A stretch of 64,000 bases of DNA. Source: Drouetiella hepatica Uher 2000/2452. GTDB taxonomy: Bacteria; Cyanobacteriota; Cyanobacteriia; Elainellales; Elainellaceae. The stretch spans positions 1 through 64,000 of the forward strand of contig JAHHHD010000028.1 in NCBI GenBank assembly GCA_019359505.1, read 5' to 3'. This document shows, one piece after another, positions 9,321 to 60,269 of the stretch. The translations under genes and the position numbers were made by a program. The notes under the pieces are model-generated. The model had not been told where the DNA came from, searched no databases, and saw only the letters and a program-made list of their open reading frames with translations. How positions within the stretch are numbered: position 1 is the stretch's first letter; each line of letters starts with the position of its first letter.

Positions 9321-9494
9321 CTACTTGTGATCTTTCGATTTACCCATGCTCACGCCCAGGCACCGCAATAGATTCAACGTTTCTGTATAGGGGCGATTTT
9401 CTTTGATCTGCCGCTCAACCGTCTCGATCCGCTGCTGATTACGAGGACTGGCGATCGCCTGACATGGAACACGCTGAGCGACTTTATGGCTCAA
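9321..9494 (-). CDS. possible 57-aa protein, convergent with tail operon
   Basis: An open frame with an unusually protein-like sequence, including SPRNQQRIETVERQIKENRP and YTETLNLLRCLGVSM. Its stop codon directly abuts the plus-strand stop at 9320. The only reasonable starts are TTG at 9494 or upstream alternatives, so it may be a truncated gene. The opposite strand over 9360-9563 is also open (ending DYLKAALVGTGFDPAIVDLP) without an ATG start; one of the two is probably a gene remnant. Confidence 0.3.
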   Translation of the reverse strand: MSHKVAQRVPCQAIASPRNQQRIETVERQIKENRPYTETLNLLRCLGVSMGKSKDHK

Positions 9495-9590
9495 GAATTG
9501 GACTATCTCAAAGCCGCTCTAGTCGGGACTGGATTCGATCCGGCGATCGTTGATTTGCCTTGATCTAGTTCAGCGTGAAAAGCTCCGATC

Positions 9591-9616
9591 AGTTGCTTCA
9601 GACTGCAACTACTCAA
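9591..9616. repeat. hairpin repeat, left copy
   Basis: AGTTGC, an 8-nt loop and GCAACT followed by ACTCAA. The same hairpin plus ACTCAA tail is found at 11153-11178, on the other side of the two response-regulator genes. Confidence 0.5.
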
Positions 9617-9690
9617 ACTAAAAACGGCTGAAACTCCTGATATTTCGTCACTGTACCAGTTCGCTTAGTCTAGTGAGTTAGTCCAAGCTT

Positions 9691-9759
9691 TTGGGCATTT
9701 TCAGAGGACGGCGATCGTATTTGTCATCGGAGTTAATGTACCCTGAAAACTTGATCGCC
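9691..9759 (+). promoter_or_regulatory. class II-like box and hairpin leader
   Basis: TTGGGCATTTTCAGAG (9691-9706) ends 67 nt before the ATG at 9774. Between them GGCGATC (9710-9716) can pair with GATCGCC (9753-9759). Weaker than the coat, 20206, tape-measure and 39495 leaders, but the same architecture. Confidence 0.35.
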
Positions 9760-9773
9760 TTTCCTGAATTTTT

Positions 9774-9941
9774 ATGGATGCACCGCAAAACACATTTGAA
9801 GCGATCGGCATTGGCAGCACGGCTCAGCTCACACAGAGGCAACGGGCAGCGGCGGGGATGTTTGTGTTTATAGGTGCTGCTCCTGTCCCTTTACCTAGCC
9901 ATAGAGGAAGTGATAAATTAAGGATGAGACATACAGGATGA
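9774..9941 (+). CDS. possible 55-aa protein
   Basis: Begins MDAPQNTFEAIGIGSTAQLT and contains QRQRAAAGMFVFIGAAPVPL, a possible short membrane segment. No family recognised. The class II-like leader at the expected distance is the main argument that it is real. Lies in the accessory region upstream of the response regulators. Confidence 0.4.
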   Translation: MDAPQNTFEAIGIGSTAQLTQRQRAAAGMFVFIGAAPVPLPSHRGSDKLRMRHTG

Positions 9942-10062
9942 TCAAAAAAAGGATAGAGCCGCTCGCCCCCATCCTTCAAGGCTTCTTGGCTAAATAGAGA
10001 GCCTTCCCGGCTGCACGTCGTACAGAGATTTCCTAATTGAAGCTTTGTTTCTGGAGGTTCAT

Positions 10063-10561: not shown

Positions 10562-10933
10562 ATGGAAAATTCACATCCTTGCTACATCTTGGTTGTAGAT
10601 GATTTAGCAGACAATTTGGTATTGATAAAAACTCTTCTAGAGGCAGAAGGGCACAGAGTAGATGTTGCAGATAGTGGCGCTCTGGCTCTGGCAAAAATTG
10701 AAGCTTCGCCCCCAGATCTAATTTTGCTTGACCTGATGATGCCAGACATAGACGGCTTTGAAGTAACTCGGCGGCTTCGGCAAAATGACCAGTTCTCCTC
10801 TGTTCCAATCTTGATAGTTACGGCTGATCGGATTGTAGAAGAGGAACAAGGGTTGGAGATTGGAGCCAATGGCTTTATCCGTAAACCTGTTGATTTTGAT
10901 GAGCTACTAAAGAAGGTTGAAGCGTTTTGTTAG
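10562..10933 (+). CDS. single-domain response regulator (CheY-like), second copy
   Basis: A 123-residue receiver domain with YILVVDDLADN, phospho-acceptor in LILLDLMMPDIDGFE, VTADR and FIRKPVD. It is clearly related to but diverged from the regulator 115 nt upstream, closer to the classical consensus, and also lacks an output domain. A strong terminator follows 60 nt after the stop. The two probably form one signalling cargo unit. Confidence 0.9.
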   Translation: MENSHPCYILVVDDLADNLVLIKTLLEAEGHRVDVADSGALALAKIEASPPDLILLDLMMPDIDGFEVTRRLRQNDQFSSVPILIVTADRIVEEEQGLEIGANGFIRKPVDFDELLKKVEAFC

Positions 10934-10992
10934 GCAAGACTTCTCCTCAAGTATTACTACAGGTCAGAGTGCGATCGCCCCTCTCCTAAGAG

Positions 10993-11025
10993 AAACCCCT
11001 TAGAACTTGATGTTCTAAGGGGTTT
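10993..11025 (+). terminator. intrinsic terminator after response regulators
   Basis: Perfect 14-bp stem AAACCCCTTAGAAC / GTTCTAAGGGGTTT with a 5-nt loop. It can work in both directions. Confidence 0.8.
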
Positions 11026-11381
11026 AGTGTGTTGTGCTCAGACTGTCATGGGGTCGAGCTGAGATACGTTTAAAATAGTGCCACGGATCTTGAAAATGCT
11101 CACTATGCTTGCATTCTAGCCGTCAACTTCCCTAGTAGTTAATATCTTGAGTAGTTGCTTTAAAAGGCAACTACTCAAGCCTGAACCCTATATTTTCGGT
11201 TGGGGTGTGTGCCAGTTGGCTAACGAGAGATGTAGTGTTTCAGGTTTTGTAGTGAGCATACTACAGTCCAATCCTAGTCCAGTGATGTAGTACGCCTTGC
11301 ACTGTGACAGTTTGCAGTTGACAGCGACGCTTGATTTGCGCTAGTCGATCGCGCCCTTAAAATCCGCAGAGGGTTGGGGAT
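11026..11381. other. non-coding stretch with hairpin
   Basis: No convincing gene. It contains the right copy of the hairpin repeat and a region rich in GTAG/CTAC half-sites around 11230-11310. Just before the box at 11382 there is AATCCGCAGAGGGTTGGGGA, a string also present with one base missing at 47530-47548. Confidence 0.5.
11147..11178. repeat. hairpin repeat, right copy
   Basis: TTGAGTAGTTGC, 8-nt loop, GCAACTACTCAA: a perfect 12-bp stem. The inner part and the 3' ACTCAA tail match the element at 9591-9616. Confidence 0.6.
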
Positions 11382-11397
11382 TTGGGAACTCTGAAAA
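11382..11397 (+). promoter_or_regulatory. class I box upstream of hub gene
   Basis: TTGGGAACTCTGAAAA ends 18 nt before the ATG at 11416. Confidence 0.6.
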
Positions 11398-11415
11398 AAA
11401 GAGCTTTGAACTTCC

Positions 11416-14232
11416 ATGTGGACGATCGCTAATCCTCAGCTGACCACTTTGACCCGCCCTGGCACCGGAGCAATTTGCAGCGTGGCCCTCAATCAATCGC
11501 TGGTACTCACCGAAGTTGATTTTGATGCAGACTGGCGATCGGCTGGCGTGGTTGCCAATCATGATCCGGTTAGTGTGCTGCTGGCAGTGGATGGAGATGT
11601 GATCGAGATTGCAGCTGAGTCTGAGCTGGTGGGTGCAACTGCTGTGATTGTCGAGGGCAGGGTTTTCACGATCGCCGCTGATTTGGACAATCCCCAAGAA
11701 GGCGAGTTCACGCCCATTTTTGCCGACTCTGCTGATACCGGAAAGCTCGGCATTCAGCCTTTAAAACAAATTAGGTTGCATACGACCCAACCGATCGCGG
11801 GTAAACCTGCGGCGATCGTGGCTCAAAAGAAGCGCCCATCCATCCCAACCAACCTGGCAGCGCCTAATATTCTGGACGCGCTCAAAGGGTTACCGATCAC
11901 GGGCAAGTTTAATTGGAGCCTCAGCATCGAACAGCATCCTAGCGGCAGCTTGCAGCTTGCCGTCGATCGCCCTCACGTCAACCAAGTGCGCGATCGGCTC
12001 AAGAAGGGCACCGAGCTAGAGGTTTTAGGGATTGGTTTCAGCGTTTCCAATATTCAAGAAAAGCTAGAAGTCGAAGGCTATTACACGGTTTCCGTTTCGC
12101 TCACAGGCAAGTGGGCGAAGCCCCAGTACAATGATCCGGCGTTTCTCCATACCCCTCGTCGCCGCAACTCACAGCAGCTCAACAATGAGCCACAAATTGA
12201 TTCAGAGTGTGGAGTTGCGCCAAACTCTATTCCACCCTTGAGGCAGCGCCCTCGCTGGGTTTCAATCCCAGAATTAGCCTCTAGAGTCGGCGTGATGTTT
12301 CAGCCGACCCGTGGAGCAACCAATGTTGGAACGACTACCAGCCTTCGCAATCTGTCAGGCGCTTGGGTTGTTGAAGTTCCACCGGACACCCCTCGCGATG
12401 CGGCACGGGCCTGGAGCGCTGATGTTGTTCAAATTGCTAGGCTGCACGGCTCGATCTTGGATTGGAGTCATGCGGGTAAAGTAACCACTCAGGCGATCGA
12501 AGCAGGACGGCTTTGGAATTATCAGGTCGAATCGCTCAACACCACCTATCAGGGCGATACGCTTCACTCGCCTAACCATAAAGGCTATGCCGCTGAATTC
12601 AAAAATGCTCAGCTAACGGGCACATTTGTTGCTGAGAACCTGATCATCAATTCCGATAGGCGGAAGGGTTTGCCTCAAGCCAAATGGAAGCCGCGCACTC
12701 CCAAAAAGGTAACACTGCGATCGGGCGATCTGACCTATGCCTCACCTCCTAGCACGGTCAAGTTCATCCGCACGATGAGCCAGAATTTTGACGCATCGGG
12801 TGACACAAAAACGCTGCATATCACTACGACGATCGACGGTCAGCCGTTTGAGGAGATTGAGTACATCTATGGCTTCAGATTCCAGGCTGAAGATGTGTTT
12901 ACATTCGATCTGATCGTTAATGCTGGGGTCTACTACACCGAACCAAAAGATTTTTGGGGCGTGGTTTCCTACAAAAAGAAGGTTTACCGCTACGACAAGA
13001 GATATGGGTTTCCGCTGGGCCATGTCACGAAAGGATGGAAATATCTACGGTTCAAGCAGGAAAGCGATGAGCTGGAGACGCTAAAGCTGTTTGACCCCAA
13101 CGACCCGATCGACCAGCTCAGCCGCGATCTGTATGTGTTTGAGAAAGTCCCCATTGTGGAGCGTAGCCTAATCAATAACGTTGCCTTCCGGGACTATTAT
13201 GCTGACGCTGAAGAACAGTCGGCATGGGTGCCCTACAAGCATTGCAACCCGGACGGCACAAGTGAAACTCGCTACGTGATTGATCCAACCTGGGCACCGA
13301 CCTGTTTTGCGATCGGCGATCTGACCTACAGCTCATGCTTCAATGTGAAGCCCAACCCAGACCTGATACCGGGTGAGATTTATGAGTATGCTATCAACGA
13401 CATCCCACCCAAACCGTTTGTGATTGCTGGAGATGAATCGATTACCAAGAAATCAATCCGGCTGCGACCTGCCCGACCTGCCGGAATCAACATCCCGCCA
13501 CTGACTGCGGATCAGTCGGCTATTCTGTTCGATCGCTTCACTGAGCGCAATCTGCAGGATTCAGCCACCAACAACTACAACAACAAAGCTGTGATTGAAA
13601 GCTTTGCTGAAAACGAAGGACGACCTAGCCCAGTGAGCCGCAAACCGTCACTGCTGGAGAAAGTTGATCCATCTCAGGATCAGGCGAACAAAACCAGTAC
13701 ACTCAATTCGACCACGCATCAAAGCATCCGCTTCACCGTTTGCACTCCCGGCTATACCTGGAGCGATCCGGTAAATGGCAGCGTGAGCAACGGGCAAGCT
13801 CACACTCTAGACTTTGCCTTTACAGCGGTGAAAACTGACTTGAGGCTGCAAGATATGCAGCAGTCGGTTCAGCATTCGTTTGACGTGCCTTTCAATGGAG
13901 CGCTGCGACCGCTCGATCGCATTTCCCTAACCGCTCAGGGTGAAAATCATTCGGTGATCGTCACCAGCGTTTCCAATAACCTGACGATCGAAGGACGCTA
14001 CGGCAAAATCCCAATCATCACCTGGGAGCCAACGCAGGTTCAGGCAGGAATCGATCGGGAAATCCCGGTAGTGCTTTATAAAACGCTGCTACCTGCCCCT
14101 CCCCAAGGTCGTCCTCAGCCTCAGCCTCCAGCAGAGCAAGACCCCAAAGCTCCTAACAACCCTTATCCGTGGGACATCACGCACCAACAGCTTTTAGGCA
14201 AAATCTCCCCTCGTTCAAGAGGTAATTTCTGA
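11416..14232 (+). CDS. large tail hub/baseplate-like protein
   Basis: A 938-residue strand-rich protein, first gene after the class I box. The N-terminal third contains beta-domain patterns such as GTELEVLGIGFSVSNIQEKL, seen in tail hub-type proteins. The C-terminal third has a HSFDVPFNGALRPLDRISLT element and a long Pro/Gln tail. Possibly the gp27-like hub joining tube and spike, but the match is by general pattern and size only. Confidence 0.5.
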   Translation: MWTIANPQLTTLTRPGTGAICSVALNQSLVLTEVDFDADWRSAGVVANHDPVSVLLAVDGDVIEIAAESELVGATAVIVEGRVFTIAADLDNPQEGEFTPIFADSADTGKLGIQPLKQIRLHTTQPIAGKPAAIVAQKKRPSIPTNLAAPNILDALKGLPITGKFNWSLSIEQHPSGSLQLAVDRPHVNQVRDRLKKGTELEVLGIGFSVSNIQEKLEVEGYYTVSVSLTGKWAKPQYNDPAFLHTPRRRNSQQLNNEPQIDSECGVAPNSIPPLRQRPRWVSIPELASRVGVMFQPTRGATNVGTTTSLRNLSGAWVVEVPPDTPRDAARAWSADVVQIARLHGSILDWSHAGKVTTQAIEAGRLWNYQVESLNTTYQGDTLHSPNHKGYAAEFKNAQLTGTFVAENLIINSDRRKGLPQAKWKPRTPKKVTLRSGDLTYASPPSTVKFIRTMSQNFDASGDTKTLHITTTIDGQPFEEIEYIYGFRFQAEDVFTFDLIVNAGVYYTEPKDFWGVVSYKKKVYRYDKRYGFPLGHVTKGWKYLRFKQESDELETLKLFDPNDPIDQLSRDLYVFEKVPIVERSLINNVAFRDYYADAEEQSAWVPYKHCNPDGTSETRYVIDPTWAPTCFAIGDLTYSSCFNVKPNPDLIPGEIYEYAINDIPPKPFVIAGDESITKKSIRLRPARPAGINIPPLTADQSAILFDRFTERNLQDSATNNYNNKAVIESFAENEGRPSPVSRKPSLLEKVDPSQDQANKTSTLNSTTHQSIRFTVCTPGYTWSDPVNGSVSNGQAHTLDFAFTAVKTDLRLQDMQQSVQHSFDVPFNGALRPLDRISLTAQGENHSVIVTSVSNNLTIEGRYGKIPIITWEPTQVQAGIDREIPVVLYKTLLPAPPQGRPQPQPPAEQDPKAPNNPYPWDITHQQLLGKISPRSRGNF

Positions 14233-33380: not shown

Positions 33381-34145
33381 GTGCCTAGAAAGTTTGAGCC
33401 AGAGAAACACTGTGGAGCGATCGGCAAGAACGGTCAGCCTTGCACCCGCCCCAAAGGATCGGCAACCGATCATCCCGGTGAGGGCTGTTGCTACCTGCAT
33501 GGGGACGCGGCGATCGTGCCTGTTGATGTGCCTGTGGAAGCGATCGCTGAGGTGGTCGTTCCCATCGCTGTCCGCCATCCCAACAAAGCCAGACCCGCCA
33601 ATCAGAACGCGGTCAAGCATGGGCTATATGCCAGAGTATTGACGGGCGCGGCGGCAGTGCGGTTTGAGGCAGTGCAGCAACATGATCCGGCTTCCATCCT
33701 GCGAGAAAGTTTCTGCATGGTCCATGCCCGTGCCCTAGGGCTACTGGAAGGAGAGGGCAAGTTCGATCGCCAAGCTCAGACCGTTCTGGAAGCTTGCACC
33801 GTGCTAGTTGAGGCAGGGGAGCTGTCCGAAGATTTTGTCAAAGAGCTGGAGCTGCGGCTCTTGAATCTGGACATTGAGCGCCTTGCCCGTATCCTCAACA
33901 GCACGGTCAACCTGGCAAATGCGGCGGTATTTCATGAGCGCATGGGCAATTTGCAGCGGCAATACGATCGCCTGATGGGATACCTGCAAGATTCGGTGAG
34001 ATTGGGCGATCGCTCTATTAAGGAGCTGGCACTGCAAGCGATTCAGGAGCTGAAGCTTGAGGCAGGATTGCCGCTGGAGGAGCTAAATATGGCTTTACAG
34101 GCAATTCAGGAGGTTAAATCGGGTGAGGATGAGGAAGAAGCTTGA
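33381..34145 (+). CDS. zinc-binding terminase small subunit-like protein
   Basis: A 254-residue protein starting with GTG. The N-terminus has a Cys/His cluster (HCGAIGKNGQPCTRPKG, then HPGEGCCYLHG), followed by NQNAVKHGLYAR, a pattern seen in small terminase-like proteins of actinobacterial and cyanobacterial phages. The rest is helical. It would recognise phage DNA for packaging by the large terminase, which here lies 10 kb away. Called from pattern memory. Confidence 0.6.
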   Translation: MPRKFEPEKHCGAIGKNGQPCTRPKGSATDHPGEGCCYLHGDAAIVPVDVPVEAIAEVVVPIAVRHPNKARPANQNAVKHGLYARVLTGAAAVRFEAVQQHDPASILRESFCMVHARALGLLEGEGKFDRQAQTVLEACTVLVEAGELSEDFVKELELRLLNLDIERLARILNSTVNLANAAVFHERMGNLQRQYDRLMGYLQDSVRLGDRSIKELALQAIQELKLEAGLPLEELNMALQAIQEVKSGEDEEEA

Positions 34146-34195: not shown

Positions 34196-34471
34196 ATGAA
34201 TAAGGCGGAACTCGTGACGGCGATCGCCACCAAGACGGAATTTAGCAAGAAAGATATTGATTTGGTGCTATCAGCGGCGATCGAGGCGATTCAGGGCGCT
34301 GTTGCGGCTGGAGATAAGGTGACATTGGTAGGGTTTGGGAGCTTTGAACCGCGTGAGAGGGCGGCTCGTGAGGGGCGGAACCCTAAGACCGGAGAGGCGA
34401 TGCAGATTCCAGCGAATACGGTTCCGGCATTTTCGGCAGGCAAGCAGTTTAAAGATCTGGTGGCAAGATAG
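34196..34471 (+). CDS. HU-family DNA-bending protein
   Basis: A complete 91-residue HU: MNKAELVTAIATKTEFSKKD, GDKVTLVGFGSFEPRERAAR, the beta-arm GRNPKTGEAMQIPANTVPAF and FSAGKQFKDLV. Starts at 34196 (the frame opens at 34142). A phage-borne HU could compact or bend the element's DNA during replication, packaging or recombination. Followed by the class I box of the ParB-like operon. Confidence 0.92.
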   Translation: MNKAELVTAIATKTEFSKKDIDLVLSAAIEAIQGAVAAGDKVTLVGFGSFEPRERAAREGRNPKTGEAMQIPANTVPAFSAGKQFKDLVAR

Positions 34472-34544
34472 ATTTTCCTTCCAAATAGATGTCAGATAGC
34501 GCTTCTCAGGTCAGGGGCGCTTTTTTGCACGTCGCAAAACGGAG

Positions 34545-34582: not shown

Positions 34583-35449
34583 ATGCCCCGTATTCAAACC
34601 GACTGGCTACCCACAGAACAATTAATGACCGCCTTTCACCCGCTGAACCCGATTCAGCATGAGGTCGAGGGCGATGTAAAGGATTTGGCGCTCTCGCTGT
34701 TGGAGGGCGGCTGGGTTGAGCCGATTACCCTAAATCAGCGCAATGGGCGGCTGGTAGGCGGACATGGGCGAGTCGAGGCGGCGAACTGGCTCTTGCAGCA
34801 GTCTGAATCGTGGTTCGAGCATCGCTGGCAGCTATGGACGGCACATCACGAGGGCGGCGTAAGCGATGAAGAGCGTTTCACCGCAGAGTATTGGCAGAAG
34901 GCGCTAGTGCTAATGGTGGATCTGAGTGAGGCAGAGCATGAGGCAATGCTGATCCGCCTGAACGACACCGAGAGCCAAGGCAAGGACGACCCGGAGAAGT
35001 TGAAAGCGCTGCTAGGACAGCTCCCCGGCAGGTTAAAGCAGCTAGCCGGGTATAGAGAGGCGATAAGTGCTTCACACCCACAAGTGACCGCCCCAGAACC
35101 CCAGACCACCGAAGACTTTCAGGACAAGCAGCGGTTTGAAGCAGCAGGAGCGATCGATTATCGCGTCGCCGATGCACCGGAGCCAGACACGGCAGAGTAT
35201 GCCAGTGGGGACGTGACAGAGTATGACGATCCGGATCAGGCGGGTGAATGGATTGAGGACGAAGAAGAGGATGAGCCTATTGAGCCGAAAGCGCCGCCGC
35301 CTGTGAGGGCTTTGTCGGTATCGCTGACCTGGGCACAGTGGAAGCTTTGGAATACCTGGAAGCGTGAGAACGATATCTCCAAGGATACCGATGCGTTTGT
35401 TAAGGGGCATGATGCCTATCAAGTTGTGGAGGAACCCGCCGATGCCTGA
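34583..35449 (+). CDS. ParB/sulfiredoxin-fold protein (first copy)
   Basis: A 288-residue protein. Residues about 22-125 carry a phage-type ParB-like domain: NPIQHEVEGDVKDLALSLLE, GGWVEPITLNQRNGRLVGGH-GRVEAANWL (nucleotide-binding GGHGR box) and the LVLMVDLSEAEHEAMLIRLN strand-helix end. No ParB HTH is evident. An acidic linker leads to a C-terminal segment (VSLTWAQWKLWNTWKRENDI) that has a counterpart in the copy at 35611. Phage members of this fold are linked to packaging and DNA modification; which applies is unknown. Confidence 0.75.
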   Translation: MPRIQTDWLPTEQLMTAFHPLNPIQHEVEGDVKDLALSLLEGGWVEPITLNQRNGRLVGGHGRVEAANWLLQQSESWFEHRWQLWTAHHEGGVSDEERFTAEYWQKALVLMVDLSEAEHEAMLIRLNDTESQGKDDPEKLKALLGQLPGRLKQLAGYREAISASHPQVTAPEPQTTEDFQDKQRFEAAGAIDYRVADAPEPDTAEYASGDVTEYDDPDQAGEWIEDEEEDEPIEPKAPPPVRALSVSLTWAQWKLWNTWKRENDISKDTDAFVKGHDAYQVVEEPADA

Positions 35450-35618
35450 ACTGAGCTTAGAACAGTGCTTTGCGCTAGCGCACTTAGAGAAGGAATGCGA
35501 GCAAATGACGCTCGATCAAATCCGCGATCGCCTGATTCAGACCTACGAGCGCACTTTGCGAATGGAAGCACAGTATCGCGCTGCGCTTAAGAAACAGTGG
35601 GGGATTGGCGATGCCTAA
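35442..35618 (+). CDS. nblA: phage-encoded NblA-like phycobilisome degradation protein
   Basis: A 58-residue protein with the NblA layout: ELSLEQCFALAHLEKECEQM, MTLDQIRDRLIQTYERTLRM and EAQYRAALKKQWG. NblA (about 55-65 residues, two helices) brings the Clp protease to phycobilisomes in starved cyanobacteria; some cyanophages carry nblA to dismantle the antenna during infection. It overlaps both ParB-like genes by 8 nt, so it is made with them. The frame is open upstream (35364), but Met 35442 fits the family length. Confidence 0.82.
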   Translation: MPELSLEQCFALAHLEKECEQMTLDQIRDRLIQTYERTLRMEAQYRAALKKQWGIGDA

Positions 35619-36528
35619 GAAACCGGAGATCCTTTATAAGACCGTCACTGAGCTGATGGCGCGGCATCACGAGGATAATCCTCGCGTCCACGGTTGGGAT
35701 GCTGATTTGCCCAAATTGGTCAGGAGTCTCCTATTCTCAGGCTGGTGTGAGTTGCCCTCCTACAACGAGAATAACGATCGCCTCATCGGGGGGCATGGGC
35801 GCGTCATGGCGGCTGAGTGGATGATTCAGCAAACGAAGGCTTGGTATGAAGAGCAATGGCAATCCTATCTAGCCGTCAATCCTAGGGGCAGCAAGAAGGA
35901 TAGAGAGCGGTTTGACGCGGGGTACTGGCTAAAGGTGCCTGTGCGGGTGAATCGTCTGGATGACTCGCTGCACAAGGCAATGATGGTGCGGCTCAACAAC
36001 CCAACCAGCCGGGGACGCACTAAGGAAGATATGAGGACGCTGCTCCTGTCGCGGCTGACTCCAGCGGCTCAAGACATTGCCATTCCCGACCCGGAACGCC
36101 GATCGCGGCTATTGGGGGCGATCGCCACTAAACGGGCTGAGGGTGCAGATGCTGAGGTGATCGAGCAGCAGGAACAGGCTGAAGGGATGGCGCGGGTGCA
36201 AGAGTCGCTAGCGGGTTTCGTGCCGCAAGAACCCAGTGATGCACCGCCCTCAGCTTTTGCGCCTGTGGCAAATCCCCAGACCTCTGCGGATTTGGATGCA
36301 GCCATTGATCCGGAGCCAGTCATTGAAGAAGGCGGGGCGCATTACAACGAAGATCCGGAGCCGGGGAAGAAGAAAGCGATCGCTTACCCACTGGCGATCG
36401 TGCTGTCGAATCGGCGCTGGCAAGAGTTTGAGGCTTATAAGGCGGCGATCGGGGTAGTCAGTGACCAGGTGGCGTTCCTCAAGGGCCATGTCGTATTTAA
36501 TCAGAAAGAGGAAGAAGGCGATGAGTGA
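35611..36528 (+). CDS. ParB/sulfiredoxin-fold protein (second copy)
   Basis: A 305-residue paralogue of the protein at 34583. It shares SLLFSGWCELPSYNENNDRL, IGGHGRVMAAEWMIQQTKAW, YWLKVPVRVNRLDDSLHKAM and MVRLNNP, again with the GGHGR box and without a clear HTH. The C-terminal segment (YPLAIVLSNRRWQEFEAYKA) parallels that of the first copy. Overlaps NblA and the radical SAM gene by 8 nt each. The two may form a heteromer. Confidence 0.75.
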   Translation: MPKKPEILYKTVTELMARHHEDNPRVHGWDADLPKLVRSLLFSGWCELPSYNENNDRLIGGHGRVMAAEWMIQQTKAWYEEQWQSYLAVNPRGSKKDRERFDAGYWLKVPVRVNRLDDSLHKAMMVRLNNPTSRGRTKEDMRTLLLSRLTPAAQDIAIPDPERRSRLLGAIATKRAEGADAEVIEQQEQAEGMARVQESLAGFVPQEPSDAPPSAFAPVANPQTSADLDAAIDPEPVIEEGGAHYNEDPEPGKKKAIAYPLAIVLSNRRWQEFEAYKAAIGVVSDQVAFLKGHVVFNQKEEEGDE

Positions 36529-37753
36529 GAGTCTGAGTGTGTTTTGGGGTGGGCTGTTCAACAATGCCTGCATCCCTCTAGAGATGAGCTTGAATTGGTG
36601 CAGTATGGGCTGCTCTTACTGCTTTGCCAATCTGAACAGCCCTGATCGCACGGGCAACATGAGTCAGATCATGGGGCTGATTAGCCAGTTTCAAGAGAAG
36701 AACACTTACGCGGCGGCGCTGCTGCGATCGGGTTATCCCGTTACCCTTTCCAATCATGTCGATCCGTTTGCCGACAGCAATTCCCGTCAGGCGCTCGTCA
36801 TTCTGGAAACGATGACCGAACTGGGCTTGCGCTACTCAATTCAAACCAAGTGCGGTAAATCGGGCTATGACTTTCTGAAGTTTGCATCGCCAACGGTGTT
36901 CTATATCTCGATCGCCACCATGGATGAAGAGGTGCTGCGGCGTGTCGAACCCGGTGCGCCATCAGCTAAAGAGCGGTTCAAGTTTATTGAGGCGGCGCGA
37001 GCTGCGGGGCATCGGGTTTGTGTAGGCATTAACCCGGTGGTGCCGGAATGGATTGGCGATCCGAATCCCCTATGCAAAACGCTGGCTAGTATTGGCGTAG
37101 AGAGCGCCTGGGTGCAGCCGCTGCACTTGAGCTGTCATCATGTGGACAACATGAGCGATCGCGAGAGAGCGGCAATGGGTGAAACCGTTCTGAAGCGAGG
37201 GCGCAGGTTCCGCAAAGACCTGGAGATGAAAGAGGCTTGCACCCGCACCCGTGACGCAGCGGTTGAGCATGGGCTAGAGGTTTATGACGCGCAGCAGCGA
37301 GAGCGATCGGATTACTTCAGACCCTACAAAGAGACGTATCCCAAGACTTTCCCGCTGGTTCAGGACTTTGTAAACCACTGTTATGACAAGGGATTAGCTC
37401 CGAATGATCCCATCTACTTTGAAGATTGGCGAGACTTTATGCTGCCTCAGCTTCCGGCTGGTGTGCATCCGCTAAGGAACCACTTGGGAGCGGTGCAGTA
37501 TCAGCAGTTTTGGCGGAGCGATCGCAACGATGAGATCCCGCGCTACATGACCTATGAGACGTTTTTGGAGATTACCTGGAATAACCATGACATCGTGTTT
37601 CATCCCTGCCATGTGGGCTGCTTCACGCTAGCAGGGGGCGCTAAGAATGAAGAGGGCAAGTATCCGCTGCATCTAGACGATAACGGGCGCTATATCCTGC
37701 TGTTCCGTCCAGACGGCTGCTATGAGCGTGCTGCTGAGTGGGAGATGTGGTGA
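36521..37753 (+). CDS. radical SAM protein (SPL/DUF5131-like)
   Basis: A 410-residue protein with Cys27, Cys31 and Cys34 in NWCSMGCSYCFANL, the 4Fe-4S ligands of radical SAM enzymes. Further marks are LSNHVDPFADSNSR, RYSIQTKCGKSGYD, FYISIATMDEEVLRRVEPGA and AGHRVCVGINPVVPEWIG, as in spore photoproduct lyase-like and phage DUF5131-type proteins that act on nucleic acids. The C-terminal 130 residues include paired Cys (CHVGC) for a possible extra site. Substrate unknown; operon partners suggest DNA. Confidence 0.75.
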   Translation: MSESLSVFWGGLFNNACIPLEMSLNWCSMGCSYCFANLNSPDRTGNMSQIMGLISQFQEKNTYAAALLRSGYPVTLSNHVDPFADSNSRQALVILETMTELGLRYSIQTKCGKSGYDFLKFASPTVFYISIATMDEEVLRRVEPGAPSAKERFKFIEAARAAGHRVCVGINPVVPEWIGDPNPLCKTLASIGVESAWVQPLHLSCHHVDNMSDRERAAMGETVLKRGRRFRKDLEMKEACTRTRDAAVEHGLEVYDAQQRERSDYFRPYKETYPKTFPLVQDFVNHCYDKGLAPNDPIYFEDWRDFMLPQLPAGVHPLRNHLGAVQYQQFWRSDRNDEIPRYMTYETFLEITWNNHDIVFHPCHVGCFTLAGGAKNEEGKYPLHLDDNGRYILLFRPDGCYERAAEWEMW

Positions 37754-39494: not shown

Positions 39495-39929
39495 ATGGAA
39501 GATTTGATTTGTATTCAGCAGAGCAACGGCGCTCAGGCTAGCAGCGTTGATGTCACCGCTAAAGAGCGGGTTTTGGCAAACGGCGCACGCGCTTACCAAG
39601 CAGTTGACAATGCTACGGGCGGCAACAGCGATCGCGGCAGAAACTCTGGCTTTTCTTCCTTCAGCCGGACTGCCAATCGAATCACTGGAAGCGCTGCAAA
39701 ATCGCAGGAATCAGCGGCTAAGAGCCTCCTGACTCGCGCTCAGCGTCAGATGCAGAGCGCAACAGGCGCTGCGAAAGATAAGGCTAGCAAGTTCTTGGCG
39801 AAAGCTAAAGCTAAAGCGGCAGACACCTTTACTGCACCCGTCAGCGCAGCGCGATTGGTTAATTCCAAGTCCAAGAAGTCTCAGGCGGGTAAGCGCACGA
39901 CCTCCAGCCGGGTCAAGCAAGCCGCGTAG
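39495..39929 (+). CDS. basic Ala/Lys/Ser-rich protein
   Basis: A 144-residue protein whose C-terminal half is histone-H1-like in composition (AAKDKASKFLAKAKAKAADT, SKSKKSQAGKRTTSSRVKQA). It may bind DNA or be a packaged internal protein. Its leader has the same arrangement as those of the coat and tape measure genes, which suggests late, abundant expression. No family recognised. Confidence 0.6.
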   Translation: MEDLICIQQSNGAQASSVDVTAKERVLANGARAYQAVDNATGGNSDRGRNSGFSSFSRTANRITGSAAKSQESAAKSLLTRAQRQMQSATGAAKDKASKFLAKAKAKAADTFTAPVSAARLVNSKSKKSQAGKRTTSSRVKQAA

Positions 39930-43469: not shown

Positions 43470-43547
43470 ATGCTTGAAACCATCGTGATCTCGCTCTACA
43501 TCCTCTCGGTTTGCGTCCTAGCCGATCGCTTCACTAGGAGCGCTTAG
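43470..43547 (+). CDS. 25-aa membrane peptide upstream of terminase
   Basis: MLETIVISLYILSVCVLADR followed by five residues: a single short hydrophobic helix. The stop overlaps the terminase GTG start by one base, and the class I box is placed for this start rather than for the terminase, so it is probably translated. It could couple terminase translation or be a tiny membrane peptide. Confidence 0.5.
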   Translation: MLETIVISLYILSVCVLADRFTRSA

Positions 43548-45034
43548 TGGGACATTGGGCGGCGCTGCTGCAGGATGAAATTGACTTGCGGCGGCAGGTA
43601 GAGGCAGAAGCTGACGTAGGCTGTACGCTGTTTGAGAAGTTCTCGCCTAGACCGGGTGGGCAAAGTCGGTTCTTTGAGTTCGCGCCGATCGCCAGCACCG
43701 AGCCGATGGATACGCGCTGGCTCGGCTTGATTGGGGGCATCGGATCAGGTAAGAGCCATTGCGGGGCAGCCTGGTTCTGTTCTCGGATGCTGCTTGATCC
43801 AGATAGCCGGGGGCTGGTCACAGCCAATAGTTATGGGCAGCTTGCGAGATCTAGTCTGATGACGCTGGCTGAGATTTGTAGAGACTTCGACATTCCGCTA
43901 GAGCCTTGGGTAAGTGGCTCTGTGGAAGATACGGCGTTAGCGATCGCCAATCGTCAGCGCTGTTACATTGGCGAGGATCGGGCGTTTGTCTATGTCCTGT
44001 CGCTCAATGCGTTTATGGGCAGAGTGCAATCAGCACGGGGTTTACAGGTGAGAACCTCGTGGATTGATGAGGGAGCTTATGCAGGTGAAAAATCGTTTCA
44101 GACGCTGGATGGAAGATTAGGGCGTGGACCCGGATTTCTCAAAGGGCAAGGGCTGATCACCTCATCGCCCAACGGCTTTAATTGGATTTACGATCGCTTC
44201 GCTGACCCCAACAGAGCTGCTGAACTCAAGGTTCTGTATGTGATGTTTTCTTGCTCAACCCGTGACAATGTGGAGTCGCTGGGCGAAGACTATGTGCAGT
44301 CGCTCGAAGCCAACTACACCGATGAGCTTGCCGCTCAGGAGCTTGAGGGTGCGTTCATTAACACCACTACTGGACGGGCTTACAAATACTTCGATCGCGC
44401 CAAACATGCGATGCAGGGTGAGGATGCTGAGATCCTGTTCTATGACCCAAATCTTGACCTGCACGTTAGCTTTGACTTCAACTACAGCCCTGCAACTTGC
44501 ACCTTGGCCCAGGTTCGAGGGAATGAGGTGCATTTCTTCAAAGAGTTTTTCGTGATGGATTCAGACACTTGGGAGATCACGTCGATGGTAACGGAGGCGA
44601 TCGCTCAAGGCAAACATCAAGCAGAAATCTATATCTATGGCGATGCGTCAGGTTCGGCGCGAACGGCGGTGAGTCGCCAAAGCAATTGGGACATTGTGTT
44701 CAACGGCTTTAAAGACATTGGCTACCACCTGGGCTTAGGTGGCAGGCTGCATCGGCGATTCGCTAAGGCGAACCCGCCCGTGAAGAACCGAATCAATAGC
44801 TGCAACTGCCTGTTCAAGGCTAATCGCGTGTATGTGGATTTGGAGCAGTGCCCAGAGCTAACGAAGGATTGGGAAGTGGTGGGCATCATTGAGGGGGAGC
44901 TGGACAAAACAGACCCGCTGCGAAGTCACTTGTCGGACGCAGCGGGTTATTTGATGCATACGCTCTTTCCCTACAAGAATGTGGCGATCGAGCTGCGGGG
45001 GAATCATGGGGCTGTTAAAGGGATTGCAGGTTAG
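43547..45034 (+). CDS. terminase large subunit
   Basis: A 495-residue packaging motor. Walker A is GLIGGIGSGKSHCGAAW (about residue 65); a Walker-B-like acidic pair is in TSWIDEGAYAGE. The C-terminal RNase H-like nuclease shows VSFDFNYSPATCTLAQV, YIYGDASGSARTA and SHLSDAAGYLMHTLFP (acidic metal ligands). GTG start directly after the 25-aa peptide. It would cut and pump DNA through the portal with the small subunit encoded at 33381. Confidence 0.9.
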   Translation: MGHWAALLQDEIDLRRQVEAEADVGCTLFEKFSPRPGGQSRFFEFAPIASTEPMDTRWLGLIGGIGSGKSHCGAAWFCSRMLLDPDSRGLVTANSYGQLARSSLMTLAEICRDFDIPLEPWVSGSVEDTALAIANRQRCYIGEDRAFVYVLSLNAFMGRVQSARGLQVRTSWIDEGAYAGEKSFQTLDGRLGRGPGFLKGQGLITSSPNGFNWIYDRFADPNRAAELKVLYVMFSCSTRDNVESLGEDYVQSLEANYTDELAAQELEGAFINTTTGRAYKYFDRAKHAMQGEDAEILFYDPNLDLHVSFDFNYSPATCTLAQVRGNEVHFFKEFFVMDSDTWEITSMVTEAIAQGKHQAEIYIYGDASGSARTAVSRQSNWDIVFNGFKDIGYHLGLGGRLHRRFAKANPPVKNRINSCNCLFKANRVYVDLEQCPELTKDWEVVGIIEGELDKTDPLRSHLSDAAGYLMHTLFPYKNVAIELRGNHGAVKGIAG

Positions 45035-45207: not shown

Positions 45208-46659
45208 ATGAGAGACTTATTTTCCTGGAGACTTCGTCTATCTGAAGCTGAGGTTTCAAAGCTGTGGGAGAGCGCCATTTTTGTCTTTGATACAAACTTT
45301 CTCCTAGATTTATATCGGTTATCGCGCAAAACTACTAACGATCTTTTAACGATATTAGAGCGTATTCAAGACAGAATTTGGATACCTTATCAAGTGGCTG
45401 ACGAGTTCTTTAGAAATCGAGAAGCCACTATTGACTCAGAAGCAAGGTCTTTTGAAAAAGCATTATCAGAACTGGAAAGCTGGAAACTTCAACAACAAAA
45501 ATTTGGTAATCTTAGAGACAAACTCAGCAGCGCAGGAAGGACAATAGCTGCTGAATTAGTGTACTTCCTGAATGGACAAGAGAATTATCTTGACGAGCAA
45601 AAGCGTTATCTTGATGCAGTTGATGAGTTAGTAGAAGCCTCTCGAGAAAAAATTAAACAGATTGAGAGCGCTCATTTTCCGCTCAATGCAGATGAAGATC
45701 TTATTTTAGATAAGATCCTCTTGCTATTTGACTCGAAAGTAGGAAAAGCCTTTGATGACAAGGCTTTACAATCCTTATACAAGGAAGCCGACGAAAGATA
45801 CGACCAATTAATACCTCCTGGCTATTGCGATGTCACAGACAAGAAGGGTAATGAAAAATACGGGGACTTTATTCTTTGGAAGGAATTACTAAACTTTGCA
45901 AAACAGGAATCCCGGCCAATTATTCTTGTGACCAGTGAAAAGAAAGAAGACTGGTGGATTAAACAACAAGATGGAAAAATTAAATCTCCACGTTTAGAAT
46001 TGCGTCGCGAGTTCCAAGAATATGTGAACCAGCCATTTTGGATGTATCGAACTGGGCATTTTCTTAAAGAGGCTAAGGAGAAGCTTGAGATTGAGATTGA
46101 TCCAAAATCGATCGAAGAAACGGATGCAATTGCCGATATTGAGTTAGTTGACGAAAAAAGGCGTGACACTTTAAGGCAAGTAGCTGAGCATATAGTGTTA
46201 AAGCAGCTAGGAGGCCCTAGTGCTGCCATTGAACAGATACTTGAGAGAACAAGGTTGCCGAACGCTGAAATGTTAGAGCAGCTAGGAGGCGCTAGTGCTG
46301 CCATCGAACGGATGCTTGAGAGAACAAGGTTGCCGAACGCTGAAATGTTAGAGCAGCTAGGAGGCACTAGTGCTGCCATCGAACGGATGCTTGAGAGAAC
46401 AAGGTTGCCGAACGCTGAAATGTTAGAGCAGCTAGGAGGCGCTAGTGCTGCCATCGAACGGATGCTTGAGAGAACAAGGTTGCCGAACGCTGAAATGTTA
46501 GAGCAGCTAGGAGGCACTAGTGCTGCCATTGAACGGATACTTGAGAGAACAAGGTTGCCAAACGCTGAAATGTTAGAGCAGCTAGAGTTGTCTCATAAAC
46601 CTCAAGTGAGAAGCGAAAAACCGAAACCTGAACAGGAAGATCCTTCTCTTGATAGCTAA
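45208..46659 (+). CDS. PIN-like nuclease (PIN_8/DUF4935) with repeated C-terminus
   Basis: A 483-residue protein. Residues 20-280 match PIN_8/DUF4935: IFVFDTNFLLDLYRLS (catalytic Asp), IPYQVADEFFRNREATI, YGDFILWKELLNFAKQ and PIILVTSEKKEDWW with further acidic residues. The C-terminus holds five near-identical 25-residue units (LEQLGGASAAIERMLERTRL), probably a helical repeat. AT-rich and without HIP1 sites, so probably acquired. PIN domains cleave RNA; a role in defence or host shut-off is possible. Confidence 0.72.
   Translation: MRDLFSWRLRLSEAEVSKLWESAIFVFDTNFLLDLYRLSRKTTNDLLTILERIQDRIWIPYQVADEFFRNREATIDSEARSFEKALSELESWKLQQQKFGNLRDKLSSAGRTIAAELVYFLNGQENYLDEQKRYLDAVDELVEASREKIKQIESAHFPLNADEDLILDKILLLFDSKVGKAFDDKALQSLYKEADERYDQLIPPGYCDVTDKKGNEKYGDFILWKELLNFAKQESRPIILVTSEKKEDWWIKQQDGKIKSPRLELRREFQEYVNQPFWMYRTGHFLKEAKEKLEIEIDPKSIEETDAIADIELVDEKRRDTLRQVAEHIVLKQLGGPSAAIEQILERTRLPNAEMLEQLGGASAAIERMLERTRLPNAEMLEQLGGTSAAIERMLERTRLPNAEMLEQLGGASAAIERMLERTRLPNAEMLEQLGGTSAAIERILERTRLPNAEMLEQLELSHKPQVRSEKPKPEQEDPSLDS
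46195..46569 (+). repeat. five 75-bp tandem repeats inside PIN gene
   Basis: Units start near 46195, 46270, 46345, 46420 and 46495, differing at only a few bases, mostly in the first unit. In-frame (25 codons), so unit number can change without breaking the gene. Confidence 0.9.
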
Positions 46660-58613: not shown

Positions 58614-60269
58614 TCAACCTGCATTCAGTTCAAGCTGTTCACCCTCCCTTTCAATGTGGCGTGCAGAAGATTTTAGGACACCTGCAACTAAGGGCAAGCC
58701 GAGTCTAGTCTTGCCCTCTAGCACCTCTTCAATGGTGACAATCTGAATGCGGGGGGTGTCTGTATTGAACGACTCAGAATGATATAGCCCACAAGCCTTT
58801 GCCTCTTTCACCATTGCCTGTGTTGGCGGCTTGAGGGTGAGGAAGACTCCCAGCTCAGCGTTCTCTCGGCTGATTGTGCCAAACAAATCTCGAATGTCTC
58901 TAGAGTCAACCTTTCCCGACTTTACTTGGAAGATGACGCGACCAAACTTTTTATCAGTGATTGGAAAGAATCCCCACCCATCAACGCCCTGGTCTGCTCC
59001 CTTCTTCTGATTGATGGCGGCGCGGTTACTGGAGTAGGTCAGCACCGCCCATTTCTCAAACTCTTTTCGTAGCCGATCGTCTTTTTTGAGTGCCAACGCC
59101 TCAGCCGATTTTATGTCCTTGGGGATGCCTGTAAGCTTAAGCGAGTCCGAACTCACTACCTGAGCACCATGAGTGTCCTCTAGACGCTTCAGAATGAGGC
59201 TGATGCTTTGGTAGGTGATGTCGATGCCAATCCACTGGCGATCGAGCTTCTGGGCGACCGCTACAGTCGTTCCGCAGCCACAGTAGGCATCTAGTACAAC
59301 ATCCCCTACGTTGCTACTTGCTTGGATGATGCGCTCCAGCAAAGCTTCGGGTTTCTGAGTGGGATAGCCGAGGCGTTCTTTATCATGTGCGCTTAAAGAT
59401 GGAATGTCATCCCAAACATCAGATGTAGGAACCCCAGGCATTTCATCTAGGTAGCGCTTGAGTTGGGGTCGTTTGGATTTGCTATCTGGATACCAAATCC
59501 TGCCTTGAGCATCTAGCCCTGCCATTGTTTCCTTGGAATACCGCCAGCCGTTAGATGGCGATAGAAATCCCTTCCATTCGTACATCATGTTTGGGCGAGG
59601 ACTAGGGCTAGTCATGTCAGATAGCCGATAGCAGCGACCAGCCACGTCTGTGTGACGATAAAAGTCTTTAATATATTTCTCAGAGTAAGGAGAATATTGA
59701 ACATTAAAACAATGTTGATTGCTCTTGGCGTAAAGAAAGATGATGTCGCTTGTAGAACCGTATCGGCGTTTTGCGTCATTATGACCGTTGGTTCTTTTCC
59801 AAGTAATCTCGTTCTTAAAATCTCCGCCTTGTGAGCAGAAAACAGAGTCTAGAACCAACTTCAGATAGTGGCTAGACGTGGGATCGCAGTGCAAATAGAA
59901 GCTACCAGTAGGCTTGAGAACGCGATGAATTTCAGCAATTCGTAGGGTCATGCTGATGAGGTAAGCCAGCAAGCTACTTGCGCCCAAAACGTAATGCAGA
60001 CCGATGATTAGGTCGATCGTCTGCTTGGCGAAAATCCCTCGATTGTTCTCTACGATTTCTTTGTAGCCGTTGATGGCTAAATCGTCCCAGTTCCAAGTAT
60101 CAACAAAGGCTTGAGCCTGAGCTGCATCTTCTTTGCCAACGTTGTTGTAGATCTGGTTGTAATTTCTTTTGGAGTTGAAAGGTGGATCGATGTAGCACAA
60201 ATCCACCACTTCATCTTTGATGTGCTTCCTAAGAACTTCGAGGCTATCACCGTAATACAAGCGATTCAT
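58614..60269 (-). CDS. DNA methyltransferase with C-terminal Mrr-like nuclease domain
   Basis: A 551-residue protein. DPPF at residues 28-31 and [17 protein letters not shown] further on, in the order of beta-class N4-cytosine/N6-adenine methyltransferases. The last ~170 residues carry an Mrr/PD-(D/E)xK-like pattern, [12 protein letters not shown] then [15 protein letters not shown]. Could be a single-chain restriction-modification enzyme or protect the element's DNA. Recognition sequence unknown. Confidence 0.8.

Follow-up and report, generated by a model that had tools for sequence, protein, structure and literature searches.

What do two ParB-like proteins and a radical S-adenosylmethionine (SAM) enzyme do together in one operon of a phage-like element? 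The question is raised by the window analyzed here, bases 1 to 64000 of a 72,295-bp contig (C3) in the 6.4-Mb genome of the cyanobacterium Drouetiella hepatica Uher 2000/2452; the same contig is present in IMG/VR. The contig, which begins with the same 14 bases (CCCAACAAGCCATT) with which it ends and is therefore probably circular, is a cyanobacterial phage or phage-plasmid whose genes include a terminase, a lysis-type peptidase and a phage integrase. The operon spans positions 34583 to 37753 and contains four genes on the + strand, in the order ParB1, NblA, ParB2 and the radical SAM gene (rSAM). We tentatively favor the possibility that it carries out ParB-assisted modification of phage DNA by an rSAM enzyme resembling spore photoproduct lyase (SPL), a reading in which we infer both the joint action of the proteins and the DNA substrate.

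Each of the three junctions within the operon is an overlap of 8 nt (ATGCCTGA, ATGCCTAA and ATGAGTGA). The original prediction, which was made from the sequence of the window, had described an operon of two ParB genes and an rSAM gene with 8-nt overlaps. The genes and the overlaps are borne out, but the count of three is wrong, since it missed the nblA gene (35442 to 35618, +), which overlaps the ParB gene on either side of it by 8 nt. ParB1 (288 amino acids; 34583 to 35449, +) and ParB2 (305 amino acids; 35611 to 36528, +) were correctly recognized as paralogues: both carry the GGHGR box and match ParB families in PHROG (for ParB1, phrog_620 at E = 3.8e-15 and phrog_498 at E = 3e-14), and they are 31% identical over 291 amino acids (E = 9e-38). 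Neither gave a match to PF02195 or any other Pfam family at E ≤ 0.1. The AlphaFold2 model of ParB2 has a mean predicted local distance difference test score (pLDDT) of 61.5, with most of residues 31 to 120 at 82 to 93, and matches Noc (Z 10.9; root mean square deviation [rmsd] 1.9 over 92 residues), ParB-CDP (Z 10.8) and sulfiredoxin (Z 9.0). On this model, the predicted fold of ParB2 is the ParB/Srx fold; a helical region at residues 139 to 201 was modeled at low to middling confidence. No methyltransferase domain was found in ParB1 or ParB2 with Pfam or PADLOC, and the match of the PADLOC MTase_II model to ParB1 is confined to its ParB part. The 58-amino-acid NblA protein matches PF04485 (E = 2.3e-8; 34.8 bits against a cutoff of 25) and PDB entry 1ojh (E = 1.5e-8). 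NblA is a phycobilisome degradation protein, a function of the host takeover type, and because its gene lies inside the operon, modification alone would not account for the whole operon.

The last gene (36521 to 37753, +) encodes a protein of 410 amino acids, with an SPL/COG1533-like core followed by a C-terminal domain of ~200 amino acids. It matches PF04055 (E = 3.5e-10; 40.8 bits against a cutoff of 29.5), and the CX3CX2C motif is intact at C27, C31 and C34, just as the original prediction had it. In sequence, the enzyme is nearest to the SPL/COG1533 group (NCBIfam Rv2578c, E = 2.6e-12) but does not reach the curated cutoffs (46.4 bits against 430 for Rv2578c and 29.1 against 360 for PA0069), and there is a weak match to a phage "DNA repair photolyase" family, phrog_9252 (E = 4e-5). 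The model of the enzyme has a pLDDT of 81 and a predicted template modeling score of 0.84, with residues 24 to 45, which hold the cluster motif, below a pLDDT of 50. Its core matches pyruvate formate-lyase (PFL)-activating enzyme (Z 15.3), SPL (4fhe; Z 13.8, rmsd 3.8, 237 residues), viperin (Z 13.6) and, similarly, NifB; in a structural second look, only radical SAM families stood out, which is no evidence against others. SPL acts on DNA, whereas PFL-activating enzyme acts on protein, and because these two enzymes and viperin score about equally, the fold by itself names no substrate.

The C-terminal domain of ~200 amino acids is unlike aligned cellular COG1533 proteins, and sequence searches of Pfam and PDB found nothing convincing for it. 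Three of its residues, Q281, N285 and C287, are invariant in nine family members, and C287 lies outside the cluster motif. Kinship of the domain to MbnC or NCS-1 was considered and taken as chance, since the best E value was 0.0094 and the ranking shifted between two queries. No SPASM/Twitch domain or recognition element (RRE) of ribosomally synthesized and posttranslationally modified peptides (RiPPs) was detected in Pfam or NCBIfam at E ≤ 0.1, a search that remote forms could escape. Judged by its sequence, the rSAM family is previously uncharacterized. Elsewhere, in the fecal phage MT836112 (L141, 3080 to 5106), an SPL-like rSAM gene directly follows a gene that resembles, by eye, a three-Cys-motif partner, so that SPL-like rSAM genes are paired in a different way in this phage.

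A profile of the C-terminal domain was searched against 390 cyanobacterial genomes. The family proved rare, with members in 5 of the 390 genomes, including Oculatella sp. LEGE 06141 and Nodosilinea sp. FACHB-131, and with loci L121 to L126 added by the viral contigs. The two named genomes and two viral contigs represent the same loci in different collections, and the independent loci are few: five lineages have visible flanks (the window, L037, L041, L042 and L121/L122). Members with comparable coverage are 30 to 48% identical, and the rSAM proteins of the five loci are 35 to 48% identical. Between L121 and L122, 11 codon changes in rSAM are synonymous and 1 is nonsynonymous, which indicates purifying selection.

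In all five of these lineages, a ParB-like gene lies directly or one gene upstream of rSAM. The small (TerS) and large (TerL) terminase genes follow shortly after rSAM in L037, L041, L042 and L121/L122, sometimes past small basic genes. In the window, the gap between rSAM and the large terminase gene is 5.8 kb and contains genes for a Schlafen/AlbA_2 protein, an ArdC-like protein and others. One further contig (L134) begins inside rSAM and continues with a basic protein, TerS and TerL. An rSAM gene without an upstream ParB gene was not seen in any intact locus with a visible flank; the exception, L124, has a truncated rSAM that lacks the N-terminal half, and no ParB was detectable there. Genes overlap at start and stop codons in the window and in L037, and they overlap in L122 as well. 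Matches between the TerL proteins of the five loci are mostly at E values of at least 1e-3 (best, 4e-5). The terminases are thus nearly unrelated while the rSAM proteins are related, and the ParB-rSAM-terminase order was therefore assembled or kept in distinct phages. The original prediction had staked itself beforehand on these families occurring together elsewhere, and ParB and rSAM were indeed found together in the five lineages. As a separate observation, L122 carries genes for a glycosyltransferase and a B12-binding radical SAM protein (10710 to 13285) that come after its terminase and head-region genes.

The company kept by related ParB proteins bears on their role. The ParB protein of L037, the canonical member, matched 480 phage records, many of them ParB-methyltransferase fusions; ~25 of 60 evenly sampled matches are annotated as methylases (a count taken from the annotations). 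The closest relatives are the ParB domains of such fusions or are encoded beside modification enzymes, as in Vibrio phages X29 and phi 2 and in NatCom phages. In the cyanobacterial genomes, the ParB matches that are not linked to rSAM are those of L154, L152 and L153. The first is fused to an N6/N4 methyltransferase; the second lies in an operon with QueE (phrog_2076, E = 3e-36), a QueD-like protein and a protein resembling tRNA-guanine transglycosylase (TGT) and DpdA (phrog_887, E = 6e-22); and the third adjoins a protein that resembles a SAM-dependent methyltransferase by eye, with no library support. The cyanobacterial prophage G416 (L155, 8124 to 11024) contains an operon of QueE, QueD-like, ParB-like and TGT/DpdA-like genes, likely a 7-deazaguanine DNA modification locus with a ParB, and an nblA-like gene lies close by. 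In a published system, DpdA acts together with DpdB, which is a ParB-like ATPase (PMC12839542). ParBc proteins also recur in contigs that encode CmoX, a phage DNA cytosine carboxymethyltransferase, and the role of ParB-like proteins beside phage DNA-modifying enzymes is stated there to be unknown (PMC12783734).

The ParB C-terminal tail, which is beta-alpha-alpha-like in ParB1, was considered as a signature of rSAM-linked ParBs. A search with the tail gave 0 matches in 50,697 phage records and, in the 390 genomes, only the rSAM-linked ParBs and two chance matches. The signature was nevertheless rejected, because the standalone ParBs of L166, L172 and L174, which have a terminase downstream and no rSAM, carry a tail of the same kind (by eye). 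A ribbon-helix-helix fits the pattern of the tail (MazE-mt1, 6kyt, Z 3.9) but gave no Pfam match, and remains a guess.

On the reading that we favor, the ParB-like proteins, of which ParB2 has the modeled ParB/Srx fold, would bind and perhaps clamp phage DNA and would bring the DNA to the SPL-like rSAM enzyme or license that enzyme to act. The enzyme would cleave SAM at a [4Fe-4S] cluster and make a radical change to a base or to the backbone of the phage DNA shortly before packaging. Such a change might shield the DNA from host restriction or serve as a signal that the packaging machinery recognizes, and NblA would supply a separate host takeover function, phycobilisome degradation, from the same operon. 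This reading is supported by the intact CX3CX2C motif and the radical SAM fold near that of SPL, an enzyme of DNA; by the gene order, kept in all five lineages despite nearly unrelated large terminases; by purifying selection on rSAM; and, short of proof, by the ParB relatives that are joined to DNA-modifying enzymes or encoded beside them. That the operon represents a new kind of hypermodification of phage DNA common to several lineages, in which a ParB clamp loads an SPL-like rSAM enzyme onto polymeric DNA for a radical base or backbone mark before packaging, seems doubtful to us. Should polymeric DNA prove to be what the enzyme acts on, the range of radical SAM reactions on DNA would be widened from repair to phage marking. 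A compact pair of ParB and rSAM without a fused methyltransferase could also make the role of ParB with modifying enzymes testable, and the uncharacterized enzyme family, with its conserved genomic context, gives nucleoside mass spectrometry something concrete to aim at. The original prediction had suggested DNA modification, repair or a packaging mark; the recurrence of ParB with rSAM and the ParB relatives beside base-modifying enzymes speak for this suggestion, whereas the ParB-terminase arrangement, which is generic in phages and occurs without rSAM, speaks against it, so that the suggestion is supported in part.

Several findings do weigh against modification of DNA. The protein-acting PFL-activating enzyme scores at least as well as SPL; ParB genes lie upstream of TerS and TerL without rSAM in Vibrio R19R, Rhodobacter RcKemmy, L166, L172 and L174; and small basic proteins flank rSAM in several loci, as described below. 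The adjacency of ParB and rSAM may be that of a generic packaging-region gene and an inserted rSAM. We consider it somewhat unlikely that there is no functional unit at all, in which case the ParBs would be ordinary DNA-binding proteins of the packaging region or of partition, nblA would be an auxiliary metabolic gene, and rSAM would be an independent cargo that happened to insert between ParB and TerS. Such independence would agree with the frequency of ParB-TerS-TerL arrangements that lack rSAM, with nblA inside the operon and with the divergence of the ParBs of the five loci, which are mostly just 26 to 43% alike, but not so readily with the absence of rSAM genes lacking an upstream ParB from the visible flanks (save truncated L124), with the overlaps in the window, L037 and L122, or with an order maintained in phages whose terminases are nearly unrelated. 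The dependency is one-sided, in that ParB often occurs without rSAM and rSAM was not seen without ParB in any intact visible locus, a pattern compatible with an enzyme that relies on a ParB already in place and also with plain insertion. Repair, in which the SPL-like enzyme, loaded by ParB, would reverse UV photoproducts in the DNA of a phage or prophage whose host is exposed to sunlight, is improbable in our view. SPL is among the best structural matches, phrog_9252 is matched weakly, and SplB/COG1533 is SOS regulated in several bacteria (PMC8565304), but other radical SAM families score equally, the H-donor Cys of SPL could not be matched to a position in rSAM, the C-terminal domain departs from the aligned cellular COG1533 proteins, and the gene sits in the packaging region, not among repair genes.

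The small basic proteins (pI 9.6 to 12), which within each phage share an N-terminal tag and flank rSAM in L041, L042, L037 and L121/L122, suggest a different substrate, although they may instead be virion cargo. Here, rSAM would modify neighboring small basic Gly/Ser/Ala-rich phage proteins, with the tag as recognition element and the products packaged or ejected with the DNA, a scheme that we think unlikely. The tags are MASKGGSWKSGKF, MAS[SG]AVR (three proteins of the Nodosilinea phage), GRGKGGKAGGS (L037) and MAARGGHWSK (L121/L122), and the remainders differ. In the Oculatella phage, at least four proteins start with MASKGGSWK[SG]GKF or a one-residue variant and have unrelated remainders, one of them an ADP-ribosyltransferase (PF03496, E = 1.4e-14); tagged proteins of this phage are encoded in L042 at 9343 to 9942, 11210 to 11863 and 11873 to 12463 and in L135 around 17159 (−). 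The Oculatella tag resembles a signal for cargo or for targeting to virions, and the pattern MA-x-KGG-x-WK had the Oculatella phage as its sole match in IMG/VR. A tagged-protein cassette lies between ParB and rSAM in L121 (976 to 1281) and not in L122 (1500 to 2153); because these viral contigs are otherwise nearly identical, the tagged small genes behave as exchangeable cassettes. Modification of these proteins is harder to reconcile with the large differences between the tags of different phages, with the remainders of several tagged proteins, which resemble folded domains and not RiPP cores, and with an rSAM enzyme for which Pfam and NCBIfam report no SPASM or RRE domain. Moreover, no clear tag pair is present in the window. 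The closest candidate there, at 39495 to 39929 (+), encodes a basic Gly/Ser/Ala-rich protein (pI 10.9) that, on composition, is a possible if uncertain counterpart of the small basic proteins elsewhere; it lies 1.7 kb from rSAM, across an opposite-strand Schlafen/AlbA_2 gene.

The flanks of the operon agree in part with the original prediction. An HU-type DNA-binding protein (34196 to 34471, +; PF00216, E = 4.8e-33) is encoded upstream, as expected. The gene at 33381 to 34145, proposed as small terminase-like, has a best PHROG match at E = 0.001, and thus weak support; the real large terminase (PF03237, E = 7.3e-16) is encoded at 43547 to 45034 (+) and marks the downstream packaging region. 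A terminator-like hairpin follows the HU gene at 34498 to 34521 (AGCGCTTCTCAGGTCAGGGGCGCT-TTTTT), although hairpins of this kind are no more frequent in the region than in shuffled sequence. The "class I box" said to precede the operon was not confirmed, and neither was a sigma-70 promoter upstream of ParB1: on the + strand, the promoter scan gave no sigma-70-like candidate ahead of the operon, and a repeat search of the contig did not find the upstream sequence strongly repeated. Farther away, the window encodes a fusion of a DNA N6/N4 methyltransferase with an Mrr-type nuclease domain (58614 to 60269, −; PF01555, E = 4e-42; PF04471, E = 6e-7) and a PIN-like protein (by eye; 45208 to 46659) with a tandem in-frame repeat of ~5 copies of the unit EMLEQLGGxSAAIERMLERTRLPNA. 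Outside the 64-kb window, at 69503 to 70081 of C3 (L038, 9504 to 10082), lies an ASCH/PUA-like domain (PF04266, E = 0.002, slightly under the gathering score), a fold proposed to be a reader of modified bases.

How, then, does the operon compare with known systems? A literature search, with most subscription papers outside it, found no description of a ParB-rSAM system, in keeping with the original prediction, which knew of no described system of such composition. The enzyme resembles the SPL/COG1533 proteins SplB, Rv2578c and PA0069 in its CX3CX2C motif, its radical SAM core and a similar core sequence (Z 13.8 to SPL; E = 2.6e-12 to Rv2578c), but it scores far under their equivalog cutoffs and differs in its unique C-terminal domain, its packaging-region setting and its ParB neighbor. 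The phage ParB-methyltransferase fusions, such as the "DNA modification methylase" of Vibrio phages X29 and phi 2, have a homologous ParB domain with a GHGR box and are often close to a terminase, whereas the ParBs of the window have an rSAM gene next door instead of a methyltransferase domain. The CmoX 5-carboxymethylcytosine system of cyanophage S-B43 is likewise built on a phage DNA-modifying enzyme whose contigs often encode ParBc; its enzyme, however, is a DNA cytosine C5-carboxymethyltransferase that uses carboxy-SAM and does not belong to the radical SAM enzymes (PMC12783734). In 7-deazaguanine modification (DpdA with DpdB, and L152), a ParB-like protein is again encoded with an enzyme that modifies nucleic acid bases, but the enzyme chemistry is different, and a tblastn search of the whole 72-kb contig with the DpdA-like and QueE proteins of L152 gave nothing significant.

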